A stretch of 64,000 bases of DNA from positions 1 to 64,000 of the forward strand of contig NZ_SOCA01000001.1 of NCBI RefSeq assembly GCF_004364345.1. Direction: 5' to 3'. Both the position numbers and the translations under genes were made by a program. Position 1 is the first letter of the stretch. Every line of letters begins with the position of its first letter. Origin of the DNA: Prosthecobacter fusiformis (GTDB taxonomy: Bacteria; Verrucomicrobiota; Verrucomicrobiia; Verrucomicrobiales; Verrucomicrobiaceae). Shown piece after piece: positions 1,445 through 45,760 of this stretch. The notes below the pieces were generated by a model that worked only from the letters and a program-made list of their open reading frames with translations, was not told the origin of the DNA and did no database searches.

Positions 1445-2269
1445 TCACGGGTCCACAGAGCCCGACTTCCTCACCCAAAGTCGCCTCACCGGTTCCCACA
1501 ACTGCCCCGGCAGGTGCTGCGGAAAATCCTCCGTGATGCCGAAGTCCTCCGGCACGCGGCCACGGGGCATGTAAAAGGTGCCAAAGATCAAATCCCACAC
1601 GGGAAACAAACCCGCGAAGTTTTTATCCCAGGCCTCCCGCTGGCGGCTGTGATGCCAGCGGTGAAAAACGGGAGTGGAAATGACATACCGAAACGGGCCG
1701 AAATCCCAGTCTACCCGCGCGTGCAGAAAGATGGCATAGAGTGTGAAAAACGGCGCAGTGGAAAGGGTCACCCAGGGATTAAATCCCAGCAGTAGCAGTG
1801 GCGTCACCTGGATGAACTTGTTCACCAGATCATTCACCGGATGCACCCGAATGCTGCTCAGCCAGTCCAGATCCTCCGAGCTATGATGCACCGCATGAAA
1901 AGCCCACCAGCGCCCGCCATGGAACAGGCGATGGCTCCAGTAACCCAGGAGGTCCGCCAGCAGATAAATCTGCACCCCTTGGAGCCACAGCGGCTGACGC
2001 GAAACCGGACCAAAACCCGCATACGATTGCTGTCGAAAATCCTCCACACTAGCCACCCCGCACCAGACCAGCAAGGCTGCGGGTAAGATCAGCCCCGCCT
2101 TCGAAAGCACCCGCGTTACAAAAGGGGTGAAAAAGAAATAGCCCACATCCGTCAGCCACCCCCGCCGCAGCAGCGGCCCCCGCGCCCTCCCCAGCCCCCT
2201 TTCAATAACCAGGAAAAGAACAGTCAAGAAGAGTAGACCGAAGAGGATGTTTTGGAGGGAAGTGGACAC
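1445..2269 (-). CDS. Sterol desaturase / fatty acid hydroxylase superfamily membrane protein
   Basis: A 274-residue integral membrane protein with histidine boxes typical of the di-iron fatty acid hydroxylase superfamily: HRLFH and HAVHH near the middle and HRWHH near residue 205. The family uses oxygen and a di-iron centre to hydroxylate or desaturate lipids at the inner membrane; the lipid substrate is unknown. Two or three hydrophobic helices lie before the first box. The start is a GTG at 2269 (peptide MSTSLQNILF), because no ATG precedes the first helix. It is transcribed in the same direction as the isomerase gene but separated by 87 bases. Confidence 0.85.
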   Translation of the reverse strand: MSTSLQNILFGLLFLTVLFLVIERGLGRARGPLLRRGWLTDVGYFFFTPFVTRVLSKAGLILPAALLVWCGVASVEDFRQQSYAGFGPVSRQPLWLQGVQIYLLADLLGYWSHRLFHGGRWWAFHAVHHSSEDLDWLSSIRVHPVNDLVNKFIQVTPLLLLGFNPWVTLSTAPFFTLYAIFLHARVDWDFGPFRYVISTPVFHRWHHSRQREAWDKNFAGLFPVWDLIFGTFYMPRGRVPEDFGITEDFPQHLPGQLWEPVRRLWVRKSGSVDP

Positions 2270-2396
2270 ACTAATGTAAACGGCGAAGAGGCGGAGTAGT
2301 AACGCCGGATTTGTTTTTTTTGGCGGGTTTTAAGTTCTCAGTGCACCGTTCGTAGGGCCCGGACTGGCTGCGGCATGAGCGGTCAAGGCGGGACGG

Positions 2397-3629
2397 TTAT
2401 TCCTTTTTTAAATGGATGAGCCGCTGCGATAAAAAGGTCCGGACAGCAGGATCTTCAGTCAGCCCCAGGGCGCGTTTGTAAGCGATGGCAGCGGCATCGC
2501 GGGAACCCAGCCGCGTGAGCAGATGTGCCCGTGTGGCCCAGTACGGCTGGTGATCACGCACCATGGAGGCAGGCAGTACATCCAGGAGCTGCAAACCGGT
2601 GCTAGGCCCGTGCAGCTCGGACTGCGCCAGCGCCCGTCCGATCCGCGCCCCGATCGCAGGTGTCTTTTGAATCAATGCGTCATATAGCATGGCAATCACT
2701 CCCCACTCAATCTTTCCCGTGACCGCGCGCTGCGCATGCACGGATTGAATGGCCGCCTCGATCTGGTATCGCCCCAACTGCTGATGCTGTGCCGCGCGGC
2801 GGATCAGGGCTTCCGCCTCGGCGATGAGCGGCGCTGACCACCGCCGTACATCCTGTTCGGGCAAGGGCACAAAGGCGCCTTCGTTGCTGCGCCGTGCCGG
2901 ATGCCGTGCGTGGGAGTGCAGCATCAGCGCCAGCAGGCCAAGGGCCTCAGGTGAATCCGGCAGCAGATGCACCAGCAGCCGGCCTAACCAAATGGACTCC
3001 ATGGCCAGTCCACCGCCGGGCCCGCCGGAGCCCGCAGCCTCATCCCATCCGGTGGTGAAGGCGGCATAGAGGCTGTCCAGGACAGACTCAAAACGCTCCG
3101 GCCATTCATTTTCACCCGGCACATAAAATGGGATGCGGGCATCGCGGATCTTCGCTTTTGCACGCACCAGCCGCTGGCTCATGGCCGCAGGGGAGACGAG
3201 AAAGGCGGAGGCAATGCGGTCCGCCTGGATTCCCAAAACCGTCTGCAAACTCAGCGGGGCGCGTGCAGCGGGATCAATGGCCGGATGGGCGCAGACAAAC
3301 AGCAGTTTGAGTCGTTCGTCAGGAAAAGTCAGGTCATCCGCCGCCTGCTCGGCCTCAAGCGCGGCGCGTTCCAGTTCCTCGGCCGCCATCTCGCGCGTCC
3401 TCTTTCGCCGGTACGCATCCACCTGCTTTCGTTGTGCGGCGCGCAGGATCCAGGCCCGCGGGTTGTCCGGAATCCCGTCCGCCGGCCACTGCCGCAGTGC
3501 CGCCAGAAAAGCGTCCCCGAGAGCATCCTCAGCAGAGGCCACATCACCATAACGGGAGGCCAGATAGGCCAGAAGCTGGCCATAGGCTGTCCGGGCGACT
3601 TCGTCCACCGCTTCTGCTGAGGATGTCAT
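2397..3629 (-). CDS. ECF sigma factor with C-terminal extension (ECF42/SigJ-like, DUF6596 type)
   Basis: A 410-residue RNA polymerase sigma factor. Residues 1 to about 180 carry sigma region 2 (core binding; segment around GDAFLAALRQWP and NPRAWIL) and region 4 (helix-turn-helix around VSPAAMSQRLVRAK). The remaining 230 residues form the all-helical extension, with TPR-like character, that distinguishes the ECF42-type group. In known ECF42 systems the gene sits beside one or more YCII/DGPF genes and no anti-sigma factor; the extension is needed for activity. Here two such genes lie just upstream on the same strand, the nearer ending 12 bases before this start. The target genes and the signal are unknown. 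Confidence 0.9.
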   Translation of the reverse strand: MTSSAEAVDEVARTAYGQLLAYLASRYGDVASAEDALGDAFLAALRQWPADGIPDNPRAWILRAAQRKQVDAYRRKRTREMAAEELERAALEAEQAADDLTFPDERLKLLFVCAHPAIDPAARAPLSLQTVLGIQADRIASAFLVSPAAMSQRLVRAKAKIRDARIPFYVPGENEWPERFESVLDSLYAAFTTGWDEAAGSGGPGGGLAMESIWLGRLLVHLLPDSPEALGLLALMLHSHARHPARRSNEGAFVPLPEQDVRRWSAPLIAEAEALIRRAAQHQQLGRYQIEAAIQSVHAQRAVTGKIEWGVIAMLYDALIQKTPAIGARIGRALAQSELHGPSTGLQLLDVLPASMVRDHQPYWATRAHLLTRLGSRDAAAIAYKRALGLTEDPAVRTFLSQRLIHLKKE

Positions 3630-3641
3630 GGAGTCCAGGAA

Positions 3642-4004
3642 TCAATCGCGGTTCATAGGCGGCAGCACGGGGCGCACTTCCGTGGAGCCACAACTGGCGG
3701 ACGGAGCCCGTGCCGCCCACTCCAGAGCCACATCCAGATCCGGCACCTCAATGACAAAAAAGCCGCCCAGCATTTCTTTGGATTCGGCATAGGGACCGTC
3801 ATGGACATGGCGCTGGCCATCCCGAATGCGCACGGTTGTGGCCGTCTCCGGAGGCTGCAGCCCGGCTCCGCTGACCATGATTCCAGATTCAACCAGCGCA
3901 TTGCAATAGGCTGACCAGGCTCCCCAATAAACGGGCGCCTGGTCAGGATCCTGGCGCTTGGCGAATTCGGCGGCGGTCTCGGTGAAAATGAGCATGTATT
4001 CCAT
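3642..4004 (-). CDS. YCII-related (DGPF) protein
   Basis: A 120-residue cytoplasmic protein of the YCII/DGPF family, recognised from the start MEYMLIFTET, the central HDGPYAESKEMLGGFF motif (a DGPF variant) and the VPDLDVALEWA segment. The fold is a ferredoxin-like dimer; YciI relatives have a conserved His-Asp pair suggestive of catalysis, but no reaction is established. It is the middle gene of a three-gene minus-strand unit: exported paralogue, this gene, ECF sigma factor. Linkage to an ECF42-type sigma factor is the usual context for this family and suggests a role in its signalling or stress output. Confidence 0.9.
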   Translation of the reverse strand: MEYMLIFTETAAEFAKRQDPDQAPVYWGAWSAYCNALVESGIMVSGAGLQPPETATTVRIRDGQRHVHDGPYAESKEMLGGFFVIEVPDLDVALEWAARAPSASCGSTEVRPVLPPMNRD

Positions 4005-4044
4005 AATGTTTGGTTAGGCTAAGGTGAATGAATGTGAAGGTCTT

Positions 4045-4491
4045 TTACTGAGCAGGCATGGTTGGATTGATAAAATGGGGATGAATCTCCACATATCCGG
4101 AAGCGATTCCAGGTGACTTTTTTGCCCAATCCAGGGCCGCCTCCACGTCCGCCACTTCAATGATGAAATAACCTCCGAGCTCCCATTCGCCCTCGGCCCC
4201 GGCCGTTGGGTTTGCGGCGGCGGCAGGCCTGCCATCCATCCCGTGAACTGTCCGGACGCCTGCCTTTCCTGGAAGCGCCGTACCACCACGCAGGATGCCT
4301 GCCTGGGTCATCGCCTGCGCGTAGGCACCATAGGCCGCCCAGTAGGCCGGTGCTTTTCCAGGATCTGATCGGGCGGACAAGTCCGCCTTGGTTTCATAGA
4401 TCAACAACGTGAATGGGTCTGCCCATGCCGGGCCGGTGAAAACCAGGGACAGGAGTAGCAATAATGGCGTTTTAAGGAGGTGTTTTTTCAT
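4045..4491 (-). CDS. Exported YCII/DGPF paralogue
   Basis: A 148-residue protein with a signal peptide (MKKHLLKTPLLLLLSLVF, cleavage near WADP) followed by a YCII-like domain resembling the next gene: FTLLIYETKAD near the N-terminus, a degraded central motif (VHGMDGRPAAA in place of DGPF) and GGYFIIEVADVEAALDWA. I chose the ATG at 4491 because the open frame's earlier ATG would put 18 non-hydrophobic residues before the signal. Most family members are cytoplasmic, so an exported copy with an altered core motif is unusual. It is probably the first gene of the sigma-factor operon. Confidence 0.8.
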   Translation of the reverse strand: MKKHLLKTPLLLLLSLVFTGPAWADPFTLLIYETKADLSARSDPGKAPAYWAAYGAYAQAMTQAGILRGGTALPGKAGVRTVHGMDGRPAAAANPTAGAEGEWELGGYFIIEVADVEAALDWAKKSPGIASGYVEIHPHFINPTMPAQ

Positions 4492-4650
4492 GGTGAACAG
4501 ATGATATGCCTGATGTGAATGAGGTCGGCCGGTTGCCGGCCTCATGACAGGGTCGTTTCAGCCATCGCCTGTTCGACATTGCGGATAAAAAAATGATGCC
4601 GCTGGTGAATTTCTTCCTTTTGAGTGACCGGAACAGCAGGAAGCCGGTTT

Positions 4651-4727
4651 CAGTTTTCGGTTTTCAGCATTCAGTTTTCCGAGTCCAGGGTCTGAAACCT
4701 GCATACTGTAAACCGCATACTGACTCC
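4651..4727. repeat. Degenerate heptanucleotide array upstream of the MFS gene
   Basis: Eleven successive 7-nt blocks can be read in one phase: CAGTTTT, CGGTTTT, CAGCATT, CAGTTTT, CCGAGTC, CAGGGTC, TGAAACC, TGCATAC, TGTAAAC, CGCATAC, TGACTCC. It ends 14 bases before the transporter start codon. Confidence 0.6.
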
Positions 4728-4741
4728 CCCTCCTCCCGCCA

Positions 4742-6070
4742 ATGCCCCTTAACGCCCGTCTTTTCATCTGGTTCCGGTTGCTGTTTAACTGCCGCCTTTA
4801 TTACCCCATCTTCACCGTCCTCTTCCTGGACCTGGGCCTGAGCATTGGCGAGTTCGCCGCGCTCAATGTCGTGTGGGCCATCACCATTGTTCTTCTTGAG
4901 GTACCTTCAGGCGCACTGGCAGACCAGTTTGGCAGACGTCCCCTCATCGTTGCCGCAGGCTGGCTGATGGTCGCCGAAATGGCCGTGCTCTGCCTCATGC
5001 CGGTGGGAAATCATGACGTGGTATTGTGGCTGTTCATTTTGAATCGCATCTTAAGCGGCACCGCAGAAGCCGCCGCCAGCGGGGCCGATGAAGCGCTGAC
5101 CTATGACTCCCTCCCACAGGCGGAACGCCAGGTGCTGTGGCCCAAGCTTATGGCCAGACTCAGCCGGGCCATCGCCATTGGCTTCATCATCACCTCCGTC
5201 AGCGGCGGCCTGCTCTATGATCATGAAAAAGTGAGCGTGGCCCTCGGCTGGCTGGGCTTTGCGGACATCAGCCGCGCCTGGACGATGAAGATCCCCCTGG
5301 TGCTGAATTTCATCATCGGCATCGCCTGCCTCCTGGTGACTCTGCGCATGAAGGAACCCGTCACCGCCGAAACCCTGGCCGCCCAAGCACGCGGGGGCTG
5401 GCTCCATGAGGCGCGTCTGGCCCTGGGCCGCATTTTGGAAACGGGCCGCTGGATCTGGAATACGGAGGCCGCTTTTACGCTGATCCTGCTTGGCGTCCTG
5501 TTCGATAGCATCATCCGCCTCTTCCTCACCGTCTCCAGTAACTTCTATCGCCTCGTCGGCATCACGGAAGCCTGGTATGGCGTCATTGGCACGGTCGCTT
5601 CCCTGCTAGGGCTGGCCACGGCCGGTCTCATGGAGCGGATGGCCACCAAGGGGACCCTGCGGGGTAACTTCACCTGGCTTGTGGTCATGACCTTCGTAGG
5701 CCTGTGGTTCGCCGCGTATCCGCAGCCCGGATTCCTCGGCGTCGCCCTGGTGGTGCCGCTCATGCTGGGCATGCGTTTTTTGCAATTCTTCCTCTCCCAT
5801 TACCTGAATGCCATCGTGGATTCCTCCCGCCGGGCCACCGCCCTGAGCTTTCGCGGACTGACCATGAATCTGGCCTATGGCGTGATGACCCTCCTTTTCG
5901 GCTGGCATACCGGCTGGCTCCAGGGCCAGCTCGGAGTGTCCTCGGAGGATCCCCAAGTATTCGCCACCAGCCTCACCTGGTGGCCGTGGTGGTTCCTCGG
6001 CACTTTGGCCGCTTCTCTCCTCTGGCTACGCTGGCGGCGCTATGGAGCGCAGACGAATCGTCGGCTTTAA
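4742..6070 (+). CDS. MFS transporter
   Basis: A 442-residue membrane protein with about twelve hydrophobic helices. The loop after helix 2 reads GALADQFGRRPLI, the motif A signature of the major facilitator superfamily (proton- or solute-coupled transporters of the inner membrane). The substrate is not predictable; the overall pattern resembles the poorly characterised MFS drug/sugar exporter-like group. The last ten residues (YGAQTNRRL and stop) are encoded by the first arm of a 23-bp inverted repeat at 6043-6104, so the native C-terminus was probably altered by that element. dnaG follows 48 bases downstream in the same direction. Confidence 0.88.
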   Translation: MPLNARLFIWFRLLFNCRLYYPIFTVLFLDLGLSIGEFAALNVVWAITIVLLEVPSGALADQFGRRPLIVAAGWLMVAEMAVLCLMPVGNHDVVLWLFILNRILSGTAEAAASGADEALTYDSLPQAERQVLWPKLMARLSRAIAIGFIITSVSGGLLYDHEKVSVALGWLGFADISRAWTMKIPLVLNFIIGIACLLVTLRMKEPVTAETLAAQARGGWLHEARLALGRILETGRWIWNTEAAFTLILLGVLFDSIIRLFLTVSSNFYRLVGITEAWYGVIGTVASLLGLATAGLMERMATKGTLRGNFTWLVVMTFVGLWFAAYPQPGFLGVALVVPLMLGMRFLQFFLSHYLNAIVDSSRRATALSFRGLTMNLAYGVMTLLFGWHTGWLQGQLGVSSEDPQVFATSLTWWPWWFLGTLAASLLWLRWRRYGAQTNRRL

Positions 6071-13778: not shown

Positions 13779-13810
13779 CACGCGGTCTGGCGGCGGAGAG
13801 GGGGGAAGTG

Positions 13811-13845
13811 CTCAGTTCGCAGTGCTCGGTGCTCAGTTCGTAGTG
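13811..13845. repeat. Heptanucleotide array upstream of mcsA
   Basis: Five 7-nt blocks run in phase: CAGTTCG, CAGTGCT, CGGTGCT, CAGTTCG, TAGTGGG. GCTCAGT inside it is the reverse complement of the ACTGAGC unit at 32051 and 44225. A short 9-nt-period stretch follows (GGGACTGAT, GGGATCTAT, GGGACGGAT; 13856-13882). Confidence 0.65.
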
Positions 13846-13946: not shown

Positions 13947-14090
13947 GAATGGGGAAATGGGGATGATTTTTGATTTTTCCCCATTTGGGGATTTTAGGTG
14001 ATAAGGCGTTGGCAGGCAGGGATTTGGGATGGGGATTTGTTTTCCCCATGGCATCCCCAGGCTCCCCACAGGGGGATTGAAAGGGGAAAA
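13947..14090 (+). repeat. Dispersed intergenic repeat, copy A
   Basis: A roughly 140-bp G-rich element whose core TGGGGATGATTTTTG (13959 on), TTTTTCCCCATTTGGGG (13975-13990) and ATGGGGATTT...TTTTCCCCAT (14029-14049) matches the reverse complement of 43969-44096 almost base for base in its first 40 bases. ATGGGGA/TCCCCAT ends give it internal dyad symmetry. No coding potential was recognised. Confidence 0.8.
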
Positions 14091-32050: not shown

Positions 32051-32080
32051 ACTGAGCACTGAGCACTGAGCACTGAGCAC
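32051..32080. repeat. ACTGAGC heptanucleotide array
   Basis: Four exact copies of ACTGAGC plus AC, 53 bases before the ATG at 32134. The same unit occurs 3.6 times at 44225-44249 and in degenerate inverted form at 13811. Confidence 0.95.
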
Positions 32081-32133: not shown

Positions 32134-32793
32134 ATGAAACCCCTCCGCCATTTCGGTTTCGCTTTTCTTCTGGTGTCCATTCTCGCCATCGCCTGGTGGC
32201 TGGCAGGCCAGCCTCAAGCCACCCCTTCCCCCGACCGTCTCACGGACCGCGCCAGCACCGAAGGCCCCATCGAACCCGCCTTCTGCGGCCCACTCCGCCC
32301 GCCGATGCCGCCACCTCCCATGGACAGCCCCTTCGGCATCCATCTCTATGCCACCACAGCCAAAGGCATCATTCATCCGCTGCCGGTCATGGAGATCGTG
32401 GACGCCCTGCCTGCTCCTGAAGGCACCCCCAGCCCCAAGATCACCCACAATTCCGCCATCCCCAAAAACGAAACCCTCTATGATGACGTCCAGACCGTCA
32501 CCATCCTGCTGGAAGAATTCCGCCGCGCCTTCGGGGCCATGCCCACCGGGGAGCTTAACGATGAAATCGTCCGCCGCCTCCAGGGAGAAAACCCCAAAGG
32601 CATCGCCGTGCTGCCCAAGACCCACCCCTCCATCAGCCCTGAGGGTGAGCTCCTGGACCGCTACGGCACGCCTTACCGCTTCCACCCCGAAAGCGCCTGG
32701 CAAACGACCATCCGCTCCGCAGGCCCCGACAAAGAGATGTGGACCTCAGACGACCAGCTCAGTGAAGGCGAATCCGGTGTCTTGCAGCTTTGA
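32134..32793 (+). CDS. Membrane-anchored hypothetical protein with GspG-like C-terminus
   Basis: A 219-residue protein with one N-terminal hydrophobic helix (about 9-25), a proline-rich segment (RPPMPPPPMDSP) and a C-terminal region LLDRYGTPYRFHP...AGPDKEMWTSDDQL. That last pattern is the one seen at the end of type II secretion pseudopilins (GspG), where it binds calcium, but the prepilin cleavage motif is missing here. I cannot assign a role. No partner secretion genes are near. It is convergent with the following membrane-protein gene. Confidence 0.75.
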   Translation: MKPLRHFGFAFLLVSILAIAWWLAGQPQATPSPDRLTDRASTEGPIEPAFCGPLRPPMPPPPMDSPFGIHLYATTAKGIIHPLPVMEIVDALPAPEGTPSPKITHNSAIPKNETLYDDVQTVTILLEEFRRAFGAMPTGELNDEIVRRLQGENPKGIAVLPKTHPSISPEGELLDRYGTPYRFHPESAWQTTIRSAGPDKEMWTSDDQLSEGESGVLQL

Positions 32794-34985: not shown

Positions 34986-35020
34986 TCTCAGTTCTCAAAT
35001 TTCTAATCTCAAACTTTCCC
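34986..35020. repeat. Heptanucleotide array abutting the alpha-E gene start
   Basis: Five 7-nt blocks in phase: TCTCAGT, TCTCAAA, TTTCTAA, TCTCAAA, CTTTCCC. It ends eight bases before the ATG at 35029, where a ribosome site would be expected. Confidence 0.6.
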
Positions 35021-43951: not shown

Positions 43952-43968
43952 AAAATGCCCGCCCGTCC

Positions 43969-44096
43969 ATTCCCCATCCGGGGACACTGGGGACCGATGG
44001 GGAAAACCATCCCCATCGCCAACCTCTTGATTTACAATCCATTACCCACCAAAATCCCAAATGGGGAAAAAACAAAAATCATCCCCATCCCCCATT
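43969..44096 (-). repeat. Dispersed intergenic repeat, copy B
   Basis: The reverse complement begins AATGGGGGATGGGGATGA and continues TTTTTGTTTTTTCCCCAT, then TTTGGGATTTTGGTG, and later GGTTGGCGATGGGGATGG and TTTTCCCCAT, matching copy A at 13947-14090 in the same order with small indels. The two copies face opposite ways. Confidence 0.8.
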
Positions 44097-44224: not shown

Positions 44225-44249
44225 ACTGAGCACTGAGCACTGAGCACTG
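44225..44249. repeat. ACTGAGC heptanucleotide array, second locus
   Basis: Three exact ACTGAGC units plus ACTG, 62 bases before the Ada-AlkA start and on the same relative side of dispersed repeat B as the array at 13811 is of copy A. Confidence 0.9.
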
Positions 44250-44311: not shown

Positions 44312-45760
44312 ATGAAACTGACCGACGCCAACTGCTACACCGCCCTCCAGGCGCGGGATGCACGGTTTGATGGCGTCTTCTTCACGGGTGTCAAAACCAC
44401 CGGCATTTATTGCCGCCCCATCTGCCCGGCCCGCACCCCAGCCCCCAGTTCCTGCACCTTTTACCCCACCGCCAGCGCGGCAGAATCCGCAGGCTTCCGC
44501 CCCTGCCTGCGCTGCCGTCCGGAACTCGCCCCCGGCTGCCAGGGCAGTTCCCTGGCGGAGGCCGTCCTCCGTCGCCTTCAGGAACGTGCGGTCGAAGGCA
44601 CCCGCCTCGAAGATCTGGACCAGGATCTCGGCCTCAGTTCCCGCCAGGTACGCCGCCTTCTCGAAAAAGAATTTGGAGTCACCCCGCTCCAGGTCATCCA
44701 GACCCAGCGCCTGCTCCTGGCCAAGCAGCTTCTCCAGGAAACCTCCCAGCCGATCAGCGAGATTGCCCTGGCCGCTGGCTTCCGCAGCCTGCGCACCTTC
44801 AACGCCCTCTTTAAAGAGCGCTACCACCTCGCCCCCAGTGCCTGTCGCCGTTCCACCAGCAAACCCAAAACGGGCGAAGGTATCCGCCTGCGCCTGGCCT
44901 ACCGCGCCCCCTTGGCCTGGGAGGCCCTCATGGATTATTTCCGCAGCCGTCTGGTTCCCGGCGTGGAGGAAATCGAAGGCCGTGAATACCGTCGCACCGT
45001 GGCTCTCGGGCAGGCCAGTGGCTGGATGCGCGTCTGGCCCCATGAAACGGAAGCCGTTTTGATCGTCGAAGTCTCCCCTTCCCTCACCCGTCATCTCGGC
45101 GCGGTACAATCAAGAGTTAGGCGCATGTTTGACCTCGATGCCCGGCCCGATGCCATCCTGGAAGTGCTCGGCTCAGATCCCCTTCTTGCGCCCGTTTTTC
45201 ATCACTTCCCCGGCCTCCGTGTCGGTGGGGCCTGGGACAGCTTTGAACTGGCCGTCCGCGCCGTGCTCGGCCAGCAGATCACCGTGACCGCCGCCACCAC
45301 GCTCTCTGGCAGGCTCGCCGCTCGCACAGGTACCGCCATTGAGACACCCTTTAAAAATCTGCACCGTCTGGCGATCACGGCCGAGGCCTTGGAAAAACTG
45401 AGTGTGGATGACCTTTGCAATCTCGGGCTCGTTCGTGCCCGTGCCTCAGCCCTCATTCATCTGGCCGCTTCCGCGCTCAAAGGCGGACTCGAGTTTCCTC
45501 CCGGTCTGGACCACGAGGCCGCAGTCGCACGCCTCATTGAGCTGCCCGGCGTCGGCCCCTGGACCGCTCATTACATCGCCATGCGTGCGCTCCGTTTTCC
45601 CGATGCCTTTCCTGCCGCTGATCTTGGTCTGCGCAAGGCCATCGGCAATGGCGAGCTCATCCCCACCAAGCAGGCCGAGTTGCGTTCAGAGCCTTGGCGT
45701 CCTTGGCGCGCCTATGCTGCCGCCGCCCTTTGGAAAAGCCTCTCCCCACTCACCCCATGA
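44312..45760 (+). CDS. Ada-AlkA fusion: DNA-3-methyladenine glycosylase with Ada-type regulator domain
   Basis: A 482-residue repair protein. Residues 1-75 form the Ada metal-binding domain (GIYCRPICPARTP and CLRCRPE, four cysteines), followed by an AraC-type helix-turn-helix (about 85-190; ISEIALAAGFRSLRTFN). Residues 200-480 are an AlkA-like glycosylase with the HhH motif LPGVGPWTAHYIAMR (about 410) and the catalytic Asp in PAADLGLRK. It should sense methyl phosphotriesters through the Cys domain, activate transcription and excise alkylated bases. The methyltransferase gene overlaps its stop codon (ATGA), giving an inducible alkylation-repair operon. Confidence 0.94.
   Translation: MKLTDANCYTALQARDARFDGVFFTGVKTTGIYCRPICPARTPAPSSCTFYPTASAAESAGFRPCLRCRPELAPGCQGSSLAEAVLRRLQERAVEGTRLEDLDQDLGLSSRQVRRLLEKEFGVTPLQVIQTQRLLLAKQLLQETSQPISEIALAAGFRSLRTFNALFKERYHLAPSACRRSTSKPKTGEGIRLRLAYRAPLAWEALMDYFRSRLVPGVEEIEGREYRRTVALGQASGWMRVWPHETEAVLIVEVSPSLTRHLGAVQSRVRRMFDLDARPDAILEVLGSDPLLAPVFHHFPGLRVGGAWDSFELAVRAVLGQQITVTAATTLSGRLAARTGTAIETPFKNLHRLAITAEALEKLSVDDLCNLGLVRARASALIHLAASALKGGLEFPPGLDHEAAVARLIELPGVGPWTAHYIAMRALRFPDAFPAADLGLRKAIGNGELIPTKQAELRSEPWRPWRAYAAAALWKSLSPLTP

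Follow-up and report, generated by a model that had tools for sequence, protein, structure and literature searches.

Cyanobacterial STRR and long simple sequence repeats have been described as simple repeats, and to our knowledge neither paired polarity nor cargo is any part of the STRR description. MITEs and REPIN/REP sequences are short, dispersed and intergenic, with inverted ends and the potential to form hairpins. In Xanthomonas, the parts of Rehm et al. 2015 used here (PMC4692102) describe intergenic arrays of GGGAATC, with a partly conserved unit, GGGANTN, convergent pairs in 70 and 75 cases, and a mean distance of 28 nt to the ORF on the 5' side and 160 nt to the next; these arrays were read as G-quadruplex SSRs whose locations are conserved. 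The unit TAACTGA occurs in Beggiatoaceae, Cyanobacteria and Bacteroidetes, mostly upstream of start codons and with ACTG on the sense strand, and was read as translational control, with one inverted repeat in the BOGUAY genome (MacGregor 2015, PMC4679880, cited in part). In the intervening sequence (IVS) of the Coxiella 23S rRNA gene, according to the portions of PMC4990558 drawn on here, two to three tandem heptamers stand before the S23 ORF and are strain-variable; the IVS has a 28-bp terminal inverted repeat, is suspected of former mobility, lies in helix 45 of the rRNA and is cut out by RNase III. On the basis of these portions, heptamer arrays and their convergent pairs (PMC4679880, PMC4692102), as well as heptamers before the S23 ORF of one IVS (PMC4990558), are already known. 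Our literature search, which covered few subscription papers and so gives weak evidence of absence, returned no report of intergenic inverted heptamer arrays tied to stand-alone S23 genes and no statement on array polarity across phyla.

We analysed the first 64 kb of contig C1 (hereafter the window, meaning the whole stretch) of a 5.83-Mb genome in 32 contigs, using home-made gene calling throughout, with uncertain start codons. A sequence-only reading had claimed arrays of period 7 in six gaps of the window. Five of these places scored far above shuffled DNA, with period-7 segment scores of 28 (372-412), 15 (4635-4692), 13 (13807-13844), 23 (32051-32080) and 18 (44225-44249), and Tandem Repeats Finder reported the same five. 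The sixth, a supposed TCTCAAA-type run on the plus strand at 34986-35020, was too weak: its period-7 score was below 11, Tandem Repeats Finder had no entry for it, and the matching gap was conserved in 14 relatives with no clear array. The enrichment over shuffled DNA that had been proposed was borne out in the 249 gaps (59.6 kb, 20 local shuffles) between the genes of a 464-kb sample, in which five segments scored at least 13 against 0.0 expected and the most prominent periods were 7 and its multiple 14. All five segments scoring at least 11 in the 464 kb came from the 64-kb window; the remaining 400 kb had none. We rejected an even genome-wide spread, as no equally strong array was present in the 400 kb beyond the window.

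The same reading had made its case depend on arrays being present in other gaps. They were absent from those of the 400 kb outside the window but not from the genome as a whole, where three consecutive CAGTNNN units gave 167 matches (reversed control, 0) and two consecutive ACTGAGC units gave 143 (control, 0), overlapping matches within one array being tallied separately. The first 20 kb of contig C12 were dense with arrays. This contig starts inside a GCTCAGT/GCTCGGT array, so arrays break assemblies and array counts are lower bounds. REP-like palindromes, GCGGACGAGGGCGTCCGC, adjoin the heptamer arrays there (L047, C12:1-20000). A dispersed companion sequence, GGGTAGAAAGATTTTGGGTAGAAAG, lies beside arrays in three adjacent gaps of contig C3 (L040, 9021-12878), and likewise in L039 and at two places on contig C12.

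The units had been said to differ from locus to locus. GCTCAGT and ACTGAGC are, however, reverse complements and represent one unit, and a CAGT/ACTG core is common to four of the six places (4651, 13811, 32051 and 44225), which form one CAGTNNN family. TTTGAGA is another unit of this genome. Within arrays, blocks of identical unit variants stand side by side. Searching for five consecutive CAGTNNN units retrieved at least 120 stretches, from Cyanobacteria, Parabeggiatoa, Bacteroidota, Planctomycetota, Acidobacteria, Chloroflexi and others. The resemblance to STRR sequences noted earlier holds, although heptamer arrays are not limited to heterocystous cyanobacteria. We rejected CAGT as a universal core because the reversed control, TGACNNN, also matched many relatives, one likely reason being that the unit GAATGAC includes TGAC. 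Of 44 genomes of the genus, 35 contain this last unit; the genome under study, which has GCTCAGT, gave 0 matches. The unit thus varies among the species of one genus while the layout stays constant, which partly supports the earlier suggestion that the arrays stem from a mechanism generating them and are not a binding site.

The array at 371-412, for which no strand was assigned, consists of four ACACACC units followed by two of CCAACCG. A gene on the minus strand has its 3' end 39 bp further on; in the direction away from that gene the array reads CGGTTGG/TGTGTGG. It begins 4 bp past the end of a 367-bp repeat that also occurs at the start of contig C2. Identity between positions 1-367 of the window and the start of that contig (15-381) is 96.7%. 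Since C1 and C2 thus open with one shared repeat, the window edge marks a place where a repeated element broke the assembly.

Comparison by blastn synteny and junction sequences delimited a 2.46-kb segment at 2269-4727 (no strand assigned) containing three minus-strand ORFs. In two relatives (G018 and G019) it is missing, and some 100 bp separate the genes that flank it. On the right the segment is bounded by the arrays at 4648-4727; near the left edge, a short degenerate CAGT-type run on the plus strand, CTCAGTGCACCGTTCGTAG (2337-2355, read by eye and unscored), is weak and may be a chance occurrence. What had been taken for a single array at 4651-4727 is instead an imperfect inverted pair of arms at 4648-4727. 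The left arm, TTTCAGTTTTCGGTTTTCAGCATTCAGTTTTC (4648-4679, plus strand; found by tandem repeat and period-7 scan), has CAGT pointing inward, and the right arm (4693-4726, minus strand, with ACTG on the plus strand; from the tandem repeat listing) pairs imperfectly with it and stops 15 bp upstream of an ATG at 4742. The two arms make a convergent opposite-strand pair inside the window, and the fold of 4640-4735 reached -26.3 kcal/mol (z -2.94).

A degenerate CAGT-type array on the plus strand, AGTGCTCAGTTCGCAGTGCTCGGTGCTCAGTTCGTAGT (13807-13844), points away from a minus-strand gene whose start is 119 bp distant. The remaining two arrays are on the minus strand. ACTGAGC, repeated 4.3 times at 32051-32080, stands 53 bp upstream of an ATG at 32134, and the matching gap has no such array in any of five relatives (G034, G019, G018, G005 and G024). 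The same unit, repeated 3.6 times at 44225-44249, stands 62 bp upstream of an ATG at 44312, and gene order breaks at 44225 relative to G034, G019 and G018, in which the flanking genes are on different contigs. As had been observed earlier, four of the six places lie 8-62 bases upstream of an ORF start. The window arrays are located between protein-coding ORFs and not within a 23S rRNA gene, and no inverted-repeat stem was seen at the single-armed ones. Inverted copies of a roughly 120-bp intergenic repeat, AATGGGGATGATTTTT..., lie at 13948-14085 and 43962-44096 with 71-76% identity; the repeat is dispersed, with further copies elsewhere in C1, C3 and C6.

The arrays have a consistent orientation. 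Among 23 arrays of this genome (at least three units and neighbours on both sides; half of the sample was chosen for holding arrays), 18 pointed away from the nearest gene and 5 did not (p 0.011), and a partner within 300 bp was convergent for nine and divergent for none. Across phyla, in the at least 120 stretches, the nearest ORF was on the expected side for 72 of 96 CAGTNNN arrays (p 1e-6), a count from which 24 arrays inside ORFs and 21 missing one neighbour, out of 141, were excluded and in which elements with two long arms entered twice. Those 72 arrays comprised 41 at 3' ends and 31 at 5' ends of genes. Among the matches listed, 38 arrays had a convergent partner within 300 bp and 3 a divergent one; counted by locus, again among the matches listed, these facing pairs numbered 30 and 3, respectively. 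For GAATGAC in the genus, 15 of 51 arrays had a convergent partner and none a divergent one, the nearest gene was on the expected side for 29 of 39 (12 of the 51 arrays having been dropped for want of a usable neighbour pair), and 13 of the 15 pairs had no called gene inside. The rule that arrays point away from the nearest gene and that pairs converge is new here and independent of the unit: CAGTNNN and the unrelated GAATGAC behave alike and GGGAATC has the same layout, which suggests that polarity is a property of the kind of array and not of the unit sequence. An extra look at 15 loci from G034, G016 and G030, partly picked for visible pairs and kept outside the polarity counts, gave 12 clusters, six of them with a convergent pair; one of these six, L355, also has a divergent neighbour.

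The two arms of one element share their vocabulary of units (0.646, versus 0.474 between elements), and a mirrored order of units across the arms was absent, the observed value being reached by 83 of 500 permutations. Folding two further pairs of this genome gave z values of -3.5 and -5.7. That stems are maintained by base pairing was not supported, as unit order is unmirrored, though three hairpins out-fold shuffled sequence. Between the CAGT arrays of two Clostridia MAG loci (L170 and L244) lies a palindromic core, TATCCGCC...GGCGGATA ... AACAATCTAAAT, which forms a repeated family; one contig has this core at two sites, and another genome has it as well. At L351 (3004-3202, from G016), a convergent pair with the ends AAGTGCT...AGCACTT surrounds a fragment of a DUF1549 (PSCyt2) gene, which looks as if coding DNA had been captured.

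Comparison of orthologous gaps, made at the species level with one genome per species, revealed that arrays bound inserts, some of them with small genes, which is new here. In a gap on contig C7 compared across nine relatives, three (G003, G151 and G018) have touching or overlapping genes, and in the other six 91-689 bp lie between them. The genome under study has a convergent CAGT pair at this place, and G206 has facing GAATGAC-type arrays, the left one degenerate. In the second of three gaps on contig C3, the genes touch or overlap in six of 12 relatives (G003, G007, G010, G018, G022 and G206) and are separated by 60-617 bp in the other six. These two gaps, with touching genes and no arrays in some relatives, indicate that arms and spacer arise or disappear together. 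The third C3 gap measured 21-628 bp in 11 relatives, and the same outer GAATGAC arms enclosed an S23 gene in four relatives (G005, G151, G022, G206) and, in two others (G003, G024), one of SMI1/KNR4 type. Some lower-identity rows of the C3 gene pair were other gene copies and were excluded, and no relative was alignable at the first C3 gap. Other insert cargo consisted of a Phd/ParE pair (G151), Uma2 (G010) and DUF4288 (G010). Duplications at the insert edges were mostly just the 4 bases of an ATGA gene overlap, which both genes need; a few inserts had longer exact ones, of 8 bp (G024) and 6 bp (G019).

Among 72 cores between convergent arrays, 15 were at least 300 bp long, and 10 of these 15 encode a protein of the 23S_rRNA_IVP family (S23, PF05635), identified by hmmscan in eight and by family search in two. 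Four come from a Planctomycetaceae genome (L141), Algoriphagus (L192), a Deltaproteobacteria genome (L196) and Draconibacterium (L212), and six from the genus; four of the latter are one gap in four species, so the ten cores represent at least five separate places. PF05635 matched in 44 of 44 genomes of the genus (43 above the cut-off) and in none of 14 control genomes. We scored best-match S23 loci of the genus, 27 after dropping 3 of 30 (L378 unresolved; L361 and L382 with too long an ORF); they form about eight site clusters and are not independent. An inverted flank match (score at least 30) was found at 18 of 27 loci versus 0 of 113 control genes, and a match in direct order at 6 of 27 versus 1 of 113. 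All 27 had a short tandem array within 150 bp, versus 4 of 56 own controls and 5 of 57 relatives' controls; for tandem arrays on both flanks the figures were 22 of 27, 3 of 56 and 1 of 57, respectively. The best period at these loci was 10 (11 loci), 7 (10 loci) or 8 (6 loci), so the fixed repeat length asserted from the window was an overstatement for arrays of this layout.

S23 genes were also present in 38 of 40 array-bearing genomes of other groups. Their loci had an inverted flank match in 17 of 30 cases versus 4 of 204 control ORFs, tandem arrays on both flanks in 22 of 30 versus 31 of 204, and on one flank in 29 of 30 versus 83 of 204. These control ORFs sit on array-bearing contigs (83 of 204 with an array), so the tandem score separates worse than the inverted match. 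The other cassette genes were too few (three Uma2 loci, one ParE, two SMI1) for use as flank controls. Thus, in the genus and in other phyla, S23 (four-helix-bundle) genes sit between inverted short arrays, a finding new here. By hmmscan, six of seven S23 proteins matched bAvd, two of them above its cut-off, and on these matches S23 would be a relative of bAvd, which serves retroelements as an accessory protein. For a relative of these four-helix-bundle proteins the structure has been solved (2RLD, five chains).

The numbers of S23 genes and of CAGTNNN arrays do not track each other: S23 and array counts were 1 and 167 in the genome under study, 1 and 75 in G018, 0 and 82 in G129, and 1 and 235 in G154. 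Many genomes of genus g2 have S23 matches and hardly any CAGT arrays, and in G034 the S23 gene on contig C6 is without clear arrays and that on C3 has weak ones. The 64-kb window contains no S23 gene; the single match of its genome, on contig C11, comes after a long TTTGAGA array and has no clear array downstream. A tie between S23 subfamily and unit vocabulary was not supported (site-level correlation, p 0.30). Two decamer groups that we first read as two sites turned out to have their upstream gene in common. At the loci concerned (L373 and L422), the upstream gene, S23 gene and decamer array are common to two groups of relatives and the gene past the array differs, which marks a gene-order break at the array edge.

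Taken together, the results show inward polarity, convergent pairing, spacers that are present or missing at the same gene pair and a strong enrichment of inverted short arrays at S23 flanks. The sequence-only reading had missed this layout, with its polarity, pairs and gap inserts, as well as the tie to S23. Our tentative reading, which could well be correct, is that the arrays are the arms of small inverted-array, IVS-like elements in intergenic gaps. A full element would consist of an inward array of tandem units, a core and a similar inward array on the other strand. Such elements may be selfish inserts that are tolerated in gene gaps in the form of RNA hairpins; the majority of copies would be gene-less, and one-armed copies would have decayed or been half-gained. 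S23 would either belong to the element itself or be the protein most often resident in it. Slippage would alter copy number and mutation would let the units drift, giving each species its own unit. The window arrays would then be single or gene-less arms of such inserts, behaving like intervening sequences between protein genes.

The nearest rival, somewhat unlikely in our estimation, holds that hairpins made of array pairs have another origin and that S23, toxin-antitoxin (TA) modules and small genes settle in the loop, in parallel to rRNA intervening sequences sitting in rRNA hairpins, such as the Coxiella IVS in helix 45 of 23S rRNA (PMC4990558, cited in part). Different cargo within the same outer arms of one gap would be expected from such settling, as would the many gene-less pairs and the commonness of arrays in genomes with little or no S23. 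On this view, however, there is no account of where the arrays come from or why they have their polarity, and the two gaps with touching genes and no arrays in some relatives, where arms and spacer go together, speak against it. Replication slippage acting alone, by which 7-base repeats would grow in any gap, this length being one that suits the polymerase (a proposal of Mrazek et al. 2007, as cited in the parts of PMC4679880 and PMC4692102 used here), would account for identical variants in adjacent blocks and for indels between strains in 7-nt steps (PMC4679880, in part). We regard it as very likely that slippage shapes copy number, but it does not explain polarity, pairing or cargo: it offers no reason for one unit family per genome, for inward polarity or convergent pairs (38 versus 3, among the matches listed, and 15 versus 0) or for the link to S23. 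Slippage alone is disfavoured by the polarity, and we consider it improbable.

A regulatory reading, following the proposal made for TAACTGA in Beggiatoaceae (PMC4679880, in part), would make the arrays binding sites for a regulator of translation or transcription close to start codons. In keeping with it, 11 of the 18 rule-obeying arrays of this genome lie at gene starts and have ACTG on the sense strand, as described for that family. Across phyla, however, 3' ends carry arrays no less often than 5' ends do (41 versus 31 of 72, among the matches listed), with the opposite sequence on the sense strand, and units vary among species of one genus, leaving regulatory binding very unlikely. Still slightly less probable is the idea that, where a gap has broken, a polymerase or telomerase-like enzyme lengthens both 3' ends, stuttering in steps of 7 bases, before the ends are joined, sometimes with capture of a fragment. 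It predicts both the inward polarity and the convergent pairs, and some cores do resemble captured gene pieces (the DUF1549 fragment of L351 and a dehydrogenase fragment in L154). S23 as the main cargo is not predicted by it, and the mirrored base skew that it would leave in the spacers was absent at the 3' ends of genes.

On the inverted-array reading, similar arms around the gene for a widespread, unexplained protein hint at an overlooked selfish DNA element. A wider proposition, about which we are doubtful, is that many phyla harbour a putative class of mobile or cargo-swapping elements that end in inverted 7-, 8- or 10-base arrays, have S23 as their hallmark and are the source of heptamer repeats, with S23 acting in making or recognising the arrays. 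Heptamer repeats and the S23/IVP protein have both long been loose ends; one geometry joins them in a testable hypothesis for both and points to where an array-making or array-moving enzyme might be sought. If this link held, there would be a further class of small gene-carrying inserts able to enter tightly packed operons without breaking genes. Some caution is due, as arrays break assemblies and sit at gene-order breaks.

Compared with known systems, the present arrays resemble the Xanthomonas GGGAATC repeats in being intergenic heptamers with convergent pairs and an array near the ORF on its 5' side, but they have another unit, and the parts of PMC4692102 used here give no link to S23, inserts or cargo. 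With TAACTGA they share a heptamer with an ACTG core and, in some genomes, long arrays of mixed heptamers; the parts of PMC4679880 used here contain no rule of convergent polarity and no S23 (a text search for 23S, four helix, intervening and IVP was negative). The Coxiella IVS is similar in its S23 ORF (at some loci here), its inverted ends forming a predicted stem and its tandem units, whereas the present elements lie between protein genes and are mostly without an ORF (PMC4990558, in part). Tandem intergenic heptamers with several unit types per genome are common to our arrays and the cyanobacterial STRR and long simple repeats. With MITEs and REPIN/REP sequences they have in common small size, a dispersed intergenic location, inverted ends and hairpin potential, but the ends described here are variable tandem arrays and not fixed sequences. 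Target duplications, which transposons would leave at a constant length, were inconsistent, the edges having mostly the 4-base ATGA overlap, with 8 bp once and 6 bp once. Presence and absence at orthologous sites, as for MITEs and transposons, was seen in the C7 gap, in the second C3 gap and for the 32051 array.
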